Below are positions 1 through 60,775 of a DNA stretch of 60,775 bases, piece by piece; the stretch's first letter is position 1; each line of letters begins with the position of its first letter. Origin of the DNA: Candidatus Gastranaerophilales bacterium (GTDB lineage: Bacteria > Cyanobacteriota > Vampirovibrionia > Gastranaerophilales > Gastranaerophilaceae); contig CANRHZ010000007.1 in NCBI GenBank assembly GCA_947630535.1, positions 1 through 60,775 of the forward strand, given 5' to 3'. The position numbers and the translations under genes are program-made. Under the pieces are notes generated by a model. That model saw only the letters and a program-made list of their open reading frames with translations, made no database searches and was not told where the DNA came from.

Positions 1-139
1 TCATTGACATTAACTAATAATGAAGGTAGCGTTATCGCTGCAACAATACCAATAATTGTTAATGTTATTAATACTTCTGCTAAAGTAAATCCGCCTAATC
101 CCTTGGGGGGGGGGGGTAACAACTTTTCATAATAGACAT
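1..139 (-). CDS. Prepilin-like protein, N-terminal part, out of frame (phase-OFF) at a poly-C tract; cut by window edge
   Basis: On the minus strand an ATG at 139 opens the codons MSIMKSCYPPPP, then a run of 12 C (plus-strand G at 105-116). With 12 C the frame runs into a TAG after two more codons. One extra C would join it to the frame at 104-1, which reads KGLGG-FTLAEVLITLTIIG and then AAITLPSLLVNVN: a class III signal and hydrophobic helix of a type IV prepilin-like protein, with the Gly-Phe cleavage site and Glu at mature position 5. The same leader, with 13 C and in frame, starts the gene at 60483, and upstream bases are also alike (a GGGAG element before ATG). The C-terminus lies outside the window. 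It is either a phase-OFF gene, an eroded gene, or a homopolymer sequencing error; the intact downstream frame favours the first or third. Confidence 0.8.
105..116. repeat. Homopolymer tract, 12 G (12 C in the coding strand of the prepilin-like gene)
   Basis: Twelve consecutive G on the plus strand lie inside the leader-peptide codons of the minus-strand prepilin-like gene, where they would encode a run of prolines. A length of 13 (or 10, 16) restores the frame. Tracts of this kind change length by slipped-strand mispairing and act as on/off switches in other bacteria. Confidence 0.85.
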
Positions 140-42886: not shown

Positions 42887-43965
42887 ATTTAGCAAATTTA
42901 AGCTTACGATCAGGGAGAGTTTTGCTACTTGCCCGTGCCCTTTCTTCGGCTAGTCCTTTGGCTTCATATTCCCCGGGGGTTACTCTGTTTACAGGCGGCG
43001 GAACATTATTGGTATTTTTTGCATCCGCATTTGCTTTTGCATTTTGATTATTTTGTGCTGCATTATTTTCGTTATTTTCAACTTTAGCTTGCTCAAGCAG
43101 CCCTTTTTCATCAAGCTTGAATAACATTACTCTTAAAATCTCAAGCGCACTTGATTCCCCGTTTAAACCAATACCGTCTGTAATACCATTTTCATTCGGG
43201 TTATTTATTGTATCAATATATTTTTCTTTTTCATCTTCAGGTATATCAAGTTTTTCAACAAGTTGAATAAGTGCCGTTTTTTCAAATTTAATTGCATCTT
43301 TTGTATAATCAGCGGCATTTTCCCCTTCATTAAGTTTAATGGTGAGGGTTTGAGCATTATCTTCCATCTGATTAAATGTGATATTATCACCCTGTCTTAA
43401 AACCTGATTTTTGTTGCTTGTTTTTGTAATTGTACCATCTTCATTGTATTCATATTTGTTTGTAACGGTTTGATGTCCTCCTTCTTGACCTTTGATATTG
43501 TAATCTGCGGTTGATTGAGTAACTTGCCCCGCATCATTTCTTGTGACTGCCCAATTTTTTGACTCTGTATCATTTACGGTGTATCCGATTGTGCTATTAT
43601 CCGTATTCATCATCCATGAATTTTCAGACACATCTAAACTGTTTAATTTTTCATCGCTTAAACCAAATGCCTTCAAAACAACCTTCATCTCTGCACTGCT
43701 TATTCTGCTATCTGAGTTGACAAACCCTTCTTTTTCAAGAATTTGATTAAATTCCTTGGGGTCAATACCGTCTTTAGCATCTATACCATATTTTTCAAGC
43801 ATTTCTTCCATTTTATTTTTGCTTATGCCAAGTGCTTCAAACTGAGCGGAAGAAAACACCTCTCCAAAAAAATCCTCTTCTTTAATTGAATTTTTTTCAA
43901 CCTGTTTTGCTAATTGGGAAAAGTCCTTACCCCCCCCCCCCTTGTACGCCGTTTACATTTGTCAT
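42885..43965 (-). CDS. Asn-rich acidic protein, out of frame at a 12-G tract (phase-OFF)
   Basis: An uninterrupted frame begins at GTG 43859 and encodes 324 residues. Upstream, AAAGGAG and ATG at 43965 open MTNVNGVQ, followed by 12 G (43930-43941) that give four Gly and then an immediate TAA. With 11 G the ATG frame would continue KDFSQLAKQVEKNSIKEEDFF into the long frame, giving 359 residues. No other good start is seen, so the gene is off as assembled. The protein is hydrophilic, with an EF-hand-like N-terminal patch (GIDAKDGIDPKEF), a central beta-rich part (NKYEYNEDGTITKTSN) and Asn/Ala-rich C-terminus. No signal peptide or family is recognised. Confidence 0.75.
43930..43941. repeat. Homopolymer tract, 12 C (12 G in the coding strand)
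   Basis: The run follows codon 8 of the 43965-42885 gene. 12 G puts TAA directly in frame, 11 or 14 restores the full reading frame, and 13 leads to TAG after five codons. Confidence 0.85.
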
Positions 43966-59505: not shown

Positions 59506-60483
59506 TTACCTTTTTACACATCTTACAGAGCATGTTGCCGTGGCTCTGGGTCTTATGTACCTGTACCCGACGGCAAAATTTACATGCCATGCGGTTCCTG
59601 TTTCCCCCGGGGTAATAACGGAGCCTGACCAATAAAATTCAGAATATGGCCCTGTAATTAATTTATTTAAATACATTGATGCAAGCTCGTCTTTATCCGG
59701 AATTCTTGCGTTATCGCCCTGTTTAATGCAAGCTGATGCGGCATCATTTCCATCATCACTATACGATTTGAGAGATGAACCGGCATCACTCGGGAATGGG
59801 TTAGGTGCCACAACAATACTGTTTGTACGATAAAAAACAGTCATAAACCCAATATCTTTACCTGTTTCATTTGGCCCTTTTAATCCGTTTAAATCGTATA
59901 CCATATTAGCGCATGCATATCTTGCAGTATAATAGTTATCAATATTTGCGTGCGATTCGCAAAAAGGATTATAATAAACTGCTATAGATTCTCCGTTTAC
60001 CGTTTCAAACGCTGCAACGTCAGTATCGGGAACCTGATTATTTTTGTTGTTATACATTTCATATAGCGTCTTTGGAAATTTAACGGCATTTCCTTGCATT
60101 GTTAATATTTCATCAGGTAGTCCGCATGCGGTAAGATTATTTTTATTACATACGTTTTGAACACGATAAACTTTTGATAACCCATCTATAATAAACGATT
60201 CAGCTGAACTTGATTTTATTGTTGTATCATTTTTATCCGTTATCTCACCGTCATTTGTCCCGTACCCTGCAACGCTATCCATCTCCCCTATTGCCTGGCT
60301 CATTCTTGCGTATAAGGCTTTTCTTTGTGCATTCCAAGCTTTATCGTTAACGTTCACAAGTAAACTTGGCAGAGTAATTGCTGCAACGATACCTATTATC
60401 GTTAGTGTTATCAATACTTCTGCTAAAGTAAATCCGCCTAATCCCTTGGGGGGGGGGGGGTAACAACTTTTCAAAAAAGACAT
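59506..60483 (-). CDS. Type IV prepilin-like protein with C-terminal C-type-lectin-like domain, in frame at a 13-C tract
   Basis: A 325-residue secreted protein. The leader MSFLKSCYPPPPKGLGG ends with the prepilin peptidase site G-F; mature FTLAEVLITLTIIG has Glu5 and a long hydrophobic helix, so it can be assembled by a type IV pilus or pseudopilus system. The central part (about 60-250) is unrecognised, with several Cys. The last 75 residues resemble the DUF1566/C-type-lectin end (RIPDKDELASMY, FYWSGSV, SVRCVKR). The poly-Pro is coded by the 13-C tract, which sets the frame; translation would need EF-P. It follows another such gene (60570) after a terminator. Confidence 0.87.
   Translation of the reverse strand: MSFLKSCYPPPPKGLGGFTLAEVLITLTIIGIVAAITLPSLLVNVNDKAWNAQRKALYARMSQAIGEMDSVAGYGTNDGEITDKNDTTIKSSSAESFIIDGLSKVYRVQNVCNKNNLTACGLPDEILTMQGNAVKFPKTLYEMYNNKNNQVPDTDVAAFETVNGESIAVYYNPFCESHANIDNYYTARYACANMVYDLNGLKGPNETGKDIGFMTVFYRTNSIVVAPNPFPSDAGSSLKSYSDDGNDAASACIKQGDNARIPDKDELASMYLNKLITGPYSEFYWSGSVITPGETGTAWHVNFAVGYRYIRPRATATCSVRCVKR
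60448..60460. repeat. Homopolymer tract, 13 G (13 C in the coding strand), in frame
   Basis: Thirteen consecutive G on the plus strand encode the Pro run of the prepilin leader. Loss or gain of one base closes the frame before the mature protein. At the paralogue at the left edge the tract is one base shorter. Confidence 0.9.
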
Positions 60484-60538: not shown

Positions 60539-60562
60539 ATCCCGCAAAATTTTTTGCGGGAT
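60539..60562 (-). terminator. Terminator after the partial prepilin gene
   Basis: ATCCCGCAAAA / TTTTGCGGGAT with a 2-base loop, followed by T-run on the minus strand. It is only 8 bases beyond the stop codon. DGR targets often have a hairpin just past the variable region, so it may have that second role. Confidence 0.85.
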
Positions 60563-60569
60563 AGTACAA

Positions 60570-60775
60570 TTATTTTTTCACGCAGCGAACGGAGAGCGAG
60601 TCCGAGCGCGTGTGCCTGAGGCGGATCCCATCGCTCATGTCCTGTCTCCATGCAAGGCCGCTTGCTCCTGAAGAAACGACTGAGCCCGACCAGAAGCTAC
60701 CGGAACTTATACCAAGTAAAGAACGGTTGACAAACATTGAACCAAGTTCATCAATGTCAGGAAGTCTTGCATCAT
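60570..60775 (-). CDS. C-terminal part of a second prepilin-like protein with GC-rich, DGR-like end
   Basis: Only the last 68 codons are in the window. They read DARLPDIDELGSMF, then FWSGSVVSSG, and SVRCVKK before TAA, closely parallel to the end of the 59506-60483 protein. The segment between AW and VRCV differs strongly from the paralogue (RQDMSDGIRLRHTRS against HVNFAVGYRYIRPRA). Here codons shift to GC-rich, mostly NNC/NNG, unlike the rest of the window: 60575-60640 is about two thirds G+C by my count. This pattern fits a DGR variable region. The N-terminus and any reverse transcriptase lie beyond the right edge. Confidence 0.75.
   Translation of the reverse strand, partial: DARLPDIDELGSMFVNRSLLGISSGSFWSGSVVSSGASGLAWRQDMSDGIRLRHTRSDSLSVRCVKK

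Follow-up and report, generated by a model that had tools for sequence, protein, structure and literature searches.

A single template repeat shared by about 33 prepilin-like genes: sequence evidence for a trans-acting diversity-generating retroelement in a Candidatus Gastranaerophilales genome

The window, by which we mean the whole stretch of 60,775 nucleotides analysed here, is contig C7 of a 1.85-Mb draft genome (72 contigs) of a Candidatus Gastranaerophilales bacterium. Its right edge is the contig end and interrupts an open-ended ORF on the reverse strand (60570..60773, 67 codons), the 3' part of a prepilin-family gene that we interpret as a target of a diversity-generating retroelement (DGR); the 5' part of the gene, with its poly-C tract, lies beyond the contig. 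The initial annotation had placed a DGR variable region (VR) at 60570-60650, within a GC-rich island at the end of a gene terminating in VRCV. The terminal residues of the ORF, FWSGSVVSSGASGLAWRQDMSDGIRLRHTRSDSLSVRCVKK, do read SVRCVKK, and the island is real, with a GC content of 0.58 over 60570-60650 and the richest-GC 81-mers of the entire window starting at 60579-60585 (GC 0.65-0.67). A VR is indeed present on the reverse strand, but its 125-nt core extends over 60582..60706 (GC 0.62), of which the proposed span took in only the 3' half, and has 86% identity to a template repeat (TR) on contig C30 of the same genome.

Next to this gene on the reverse strand lies a full-length prepilin paralogue (59506..60483) whose C-terminus is VR-like but diverged. 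It retains the WSGS and VRCVK framework, as had been noted from the sequence beforehand, and is 45% identical to the window gene in the C-terminal domain. It matches the TR at only 63 of 141 bases without a clear adenine bias (mismatches at 21/34 adenines vs 44/91 other bases) and does not count among the genes that the sampled TR currently targets. A C13 tract (60448..60460, reverse strand) stands in frame (ON) between its start codon and its prepilin signal. At its left edge the contig holds the 5' end of yet another prepilin paralogue (3..116, reverse strand), whose C12 tract is out of frame and leaves a 14-aa product. Two near copies of the full-length paralogue (L094 and L095, on contigs C9 and C18) largely have its body in common and differ in the loops; the leaders of the near copies also differ (contig C9 vs the window). 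This pattern, which shows no adenine bias, suggests that gene conversion has shuffled the copies. A second, unseen template behind the loops of these near copies was rejected, as the differences are not adenine-specific.

The TR (L001:1108-1248 on contig C30) is adenine-rich and rich in AAC codons (9 AAY codons) and is situated between avd and the reverse transcriptase (RT) gene, directly upstream of the latter, in the order avd-TR-RT. The RT is intact (404 aa, no stops), matches RVT_1, and carries the motifs IGNLTSQ and YVDD; its best match among sequences of solved structures is PDB 8ub7 (E = 1e-35, entry name 'Reverse transcriptase'), which we take to be the BPP-1 DGR RT. IGNLTSQ presumably represents [ILV]GxxxSQ, the DGR-type form of this motif. 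By the 8ub7 match, both motifs and its length the enzyme qualifies as a DGR-type RT, and its closest relatives among named records are Candidatus Gastranaerophilales MAGs. The accessory protein Avd is likewise identified by a Pfam bAvd score above the cut-off (59.3 vs 40 bits), with an additional match to NCBIfam DivGenRetAVD (E = 6.6e-14) that is under its curated cut-off. No target gene adjoining the C30 cassette was found. The genome encodes two reverse transcriptases, and the second (L002, contig C50, 1378-2292) was rejected as a DGR RT because it is retron-like. It is related to retron St85-type RTs, under the curated cut-off, and has a small XRE-like regulator ORF directly upstream.

Over the 125 nt of the core, the window VR is changed at 16/34 TR adenines and at 2/91 other bases (Fisher P = 3.9e-9). 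Sixteen of the 18 mismatches (89%) thus fall on adenines, and the adenine rule of Roux 2021, with a threshold of at least 75% of mismatches (PMC8144416), is met. With a TR near the RT that resembles a coding gene's 3' terminus (86% over 125 nt) and mismatches concentrated at template adenines, the genome supplies both the RT and the template on which the annotation of a DGR variable region in the partial gene depended. Both exceptions (TR sites 44 and 107) are positions at which the TR departs from most VRs, and with three TR-specific sites set aside 100% of the mismatches are at adenines. Direct comparisons between VRs need no trust in the TR sequence. Between the window VR and that of contig C38, differences fall on 17/34 adenine sites and 0/91 others, which points to recent rewriting. 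A full-length prepilin gene on contig C19 (L038) departs from the window gene at 23/34 adenine sites and 5/91 others within the VR, but at only 1 position in the 69 nt upstream. With the VRs substituted one at a time as pseudo-templates, the ratio of adenine to non-adenine mismatches was 1.4-2.5, as compared to 4.35 for the real TR.

An ordinary family of paralogous surface proteins, with no retroelement involved and its loops diverging through duplication, gene conversion and diversifying selection, would be in keeping with the roughly 50 related prepilin copies in the genome and with groups such as the window paralogue and its near copies, whose loop differences lack an adenine bias. Plain paralogy predicts, however, neither a template that is adenine-rich, is itself no target and adjoins a DGR RT and Avd, nor the adenine-specific split between the window and C38 VRs, nor the outlier status of the TR among the pseudo-templates; it is already contradicted for the window VR and deserves hardly any credence. 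We are instead highly confident that the best explanation as a whole is that the window feature is the VR of a cellular, trans-acting DGR. What the sequence itself establishes is an intact DGR RT in an avd-TR-RT arrangement, about 33 prepilin 3' ends matched by the TR, differences concentrated at adenines and a fixed difference between TR and VRs directly at their 3' side.

The VRs matched by the TR (about 33) are, every one, at the 3' end of a member of one prepilin family, from which it appears that the single TR of a trans-acting DGR serves about 33 targets scattered over the 1.85 Mb of the genome. This count is probably too low, because many contigs end inside or near target genes; a prepilin search of the genome returned 52 matches, fragments among them. 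The strict 75%-adenine rule is passed by 6/33 VRs, or by 10 if the three TR-specific sites are set aside, and the remaining VRs show a graded decay of the adenine bias that leaves the older ones weak. Among the 19 best VRs (scoring at least 100/141), the TR base C at position 44 occurs in none (0/19, all A or G), and the TR bases G20 and T107 occur only in a minority. Either the TR changed after most VRs had been written, in which case few of them are copies of its current version, or the assembled TR base call is wrong.

Reverse transcriptases of the C30 kind were detected in 28/191 family genomes searched, representing 13/41 genera. Within the genus (9 genomes), the RT and the VR matches are both restricted to this genome and one congener (G007), which has its own TR and at least 39 VR matches in the same prepilin family, with mismatches at 510/1088 adenines vs 631/3162 other bases (P = 7e-63). 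Genomes of another genus (g10) possess a TR with few VRs, up to about nine. In G007 (L127/L123), the Avd gene and the TR follow the RT on its 3' side and are oppositely oriented, unlike in this genome and in genus g10. A scan of a viral contig collection with target and RT revealed no relatives of either, and a phage origin of the DGR was dropped.

That the DGR is still active is an inference. It might have worked formerly and now be inactive, the VRs being fossils of earlier retrohoming, as the decayed adenine bias in most VRs and the TR bases that are absent or rare in them would allow. We consider this improbable, given that RT and Avd are intact, that the absence of non-adenine differences between the window and C38 VRs bespeaks recent rewriting, and that the cassette persists in the congener and RT relatives occur in 28/191 family genomes. 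Directly 3' of the window VR, an IMH-like segment (60570..60581, reverse strand) reads GTGAAAAAATAA, and its TR counterpart reads CTCAGGAGATAA. Downstream sequence was read for all 33 VRs and the 3' difference between TR and VR was scored in the 19 best, in which TR positions 126, 128, 130 and 131 differ in 95-100% of the copies and the bases directly 3' of the core are [GA]T.AAA, with single exceptions, vs CTCAGG in the TR. By analogy we infer that this segment may act as IMH and its TR counterpart as IMH*.

The hairpin that the initial annotation reported after the gene does exist, as a 10-bp perfect inverted repeat downstream of the stop codon (60539..60562, reverse strand; ATCCCGCAAA-AAAT-TTTGCGGGAT). 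Since a T-run follows and only 12/33 targets have the hairpin in common, it resembles an intrinsic terminator; a role as DGR stem-loop is possible but not shown, and as a universal DGR stem-loop the hairpin was rejected because of the same limited occurrence. The hairpin is not part of the TR. Perfect GC-containing stems of at least 6 bp follow 16/33 VRs and are mostly terminator-like.

The assignment to prepilin-like proteins is borne out for the family by its N-terminal GFxxxE domain, detected in the full-length window paralogue above the cut-offs of both PF07963 (N_methyl, 23.0 vs 21.2) and TIGR02532 (22.7 vs 16.3); the window target itself is without its 5' end. Genes for a prepilin peptidase and a pilus platform are present in the genome. 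The C-terminal domain is less well defined. Pfam Lcl_C (DUF1566) was matched by 29/31 members (best E = 4.6e-8), under the cut-off wherever a score was shown, a PDB search with the domain yielded no credible match, and the AlphaFold model of the window paralogue, run with two congener homologues, was unusable (pLDDT 37). With weak profile evidence only, a lectin fold is a lead and not a result. We propose that the C30 DGR would rewrite exposed C-terminal loops of prepilin-like proteins in trans, and that these proteins, once cleaved by the prepilin peptidase encoded in the genome, would be exposed as subunits of a pilus or pseudopilus that may bind varied ligands, although pilus display of the targets is not shown. 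As relatives of the lineage live in animal guts, such a system may decide what those bacteria attach to.

The DGR of Bordetella phage BPP-1 comprises Mtd, Avd and brt (PMC12875486). The system described here resembles it in the avd-TR-RT order, the adenine-specific mismatches and the best RT match (8ub7), and possibly also in the IMH/IMH*-like difference 3' of the VR and the downstream inverted repeat. It departs from it in being cellular, in having about 33 remote targets vs one, and in diversifying a prepilin vs a tail fibre. Hosts of cyanobacterial DGRs and the present lineage presumably belong to the same broad phylum by GTDB. Cyanobacterial DGRs with remote targets likewise have paralogous targets that are dispersed, carry 3'-terminal VRs and are served in trans by few RTs, but those targets, 121 diversified genes in 21 genomes, contain CLec domains alone or with kinase domains (PMC7517822), unlike the about 33 members of a single prepilin family found here in one genome. 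Many targets within one genome are also known from Thiohalocapsa PB-PSB1, where nine DGR loci, 15 targets and defence-linked sensors are described and the 21 VRs were termed exceptional (PMC10907252); here, by contrast, the about 33 VRs lie in pilin-like proteins, and only one DGR RT and one TR were found for them. With about 33 targets on one TR in this genome and at least 39 VR matches in the congener, the count exceeds the 21 VRs of PB-PSB1 (PMC10907252). Larger repeat counts have been reported in one survey, in an element termed atypical (PMC6642488). Cellular DGRs of Treponema and Legionella vary surface proteins (cited in PMC8144416, PMC10907252); their targets are lipoproteins, unlike the prepilins here. 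We regard the present system as an unusually large variant of a known DGR system. Among the open-access papers searched, none paired DGRs with Gastranaerophilales or Melainabacteria, which does not prove absence, and only two named pilins beside DGR variable regions, a single time each and, judging by title and abstract, in other contexts.

A second layer of variation had been suggested in the form of poly-C switching. Its elements are real in the sequence: at least 17 prepilin copies (those with uninterrupted tracts read together with a start codon; the total may be higher) have an ATG and a short leader, followed by C10-C13 without interruption and then by KGLGGFTLAEV or a close variant, so that tract length sets the frame between start and gene body. 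The usual leader has a Shine-Dalgarno-like sequence before the start. Only the window paralogue (C13 tract) is in frame, and 16/17 copies run into a stop codon 14 to about 45 codons from the start; the chance of no more than 1/17 in frame, if frames were random, is about 0.01. This hints at mostly-off expression of tract-bearing copies, which like switching itself is inferred, and homopolymers in draft assemblies are unreliable. At the 5' end of one further copy (L063, contig C57), the tract is down to CC, which leaves the start codon out of frame, and the VR is retained.

The tracts may add on/off phase variation to the DGR, with few copies expressed at once, but this part of the model is weaker, and phase switching is plausible and unproven. 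We only tentatively propose a two-level repertoire, one that could well prove mistaken, in which the DGR rewrites dozens of prepilin tips, poly-C frameshifts silence nearly all of them and one or a few are shown. That the tracts are not switches at all, and instead are assembly or sequencing artefacts or drift tolerated through alternative starts, seems unlikely to us but has to be taken seriously in a draft of 72 contigs, where homopolymers of 11-13 are prone to error. TTG codons might start some C11 frames, and the targets of G007 lack the tract. Against artefact or drift, the ATG, leader types and tract position are conserved in the 17 copies, most with a Shine-Dalgarno sequence, and this genome contains 49 poly-C tracts (ACCCCCCCCCC), far above the 0-11 in eight congeners.

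Neisseria pilin combines variable ends with homopolymer-tract switching, its variation arising by recombination from silent pilS copies. The prepilins here are similar in having variable pilin ends and a homopolymer tract, and differ in that a retroelement takes the place of pilS recombination. If the tract also switches expression, two separate routes of surface variation would be joined, and the build-up of DGR variation in silent gene copies could be tested here; a true two-level repertoire would constitute a store of silent, pre-diversified adhesins. Tracts of C11-13 are also present outside the prepilin family, for instance at 43930-43941 of the window (forward strand) and at five sites on L119 (contig C16) as well as on L120, L121 and L122, and many non-prepilin poly-C tracts have TTA just before them.
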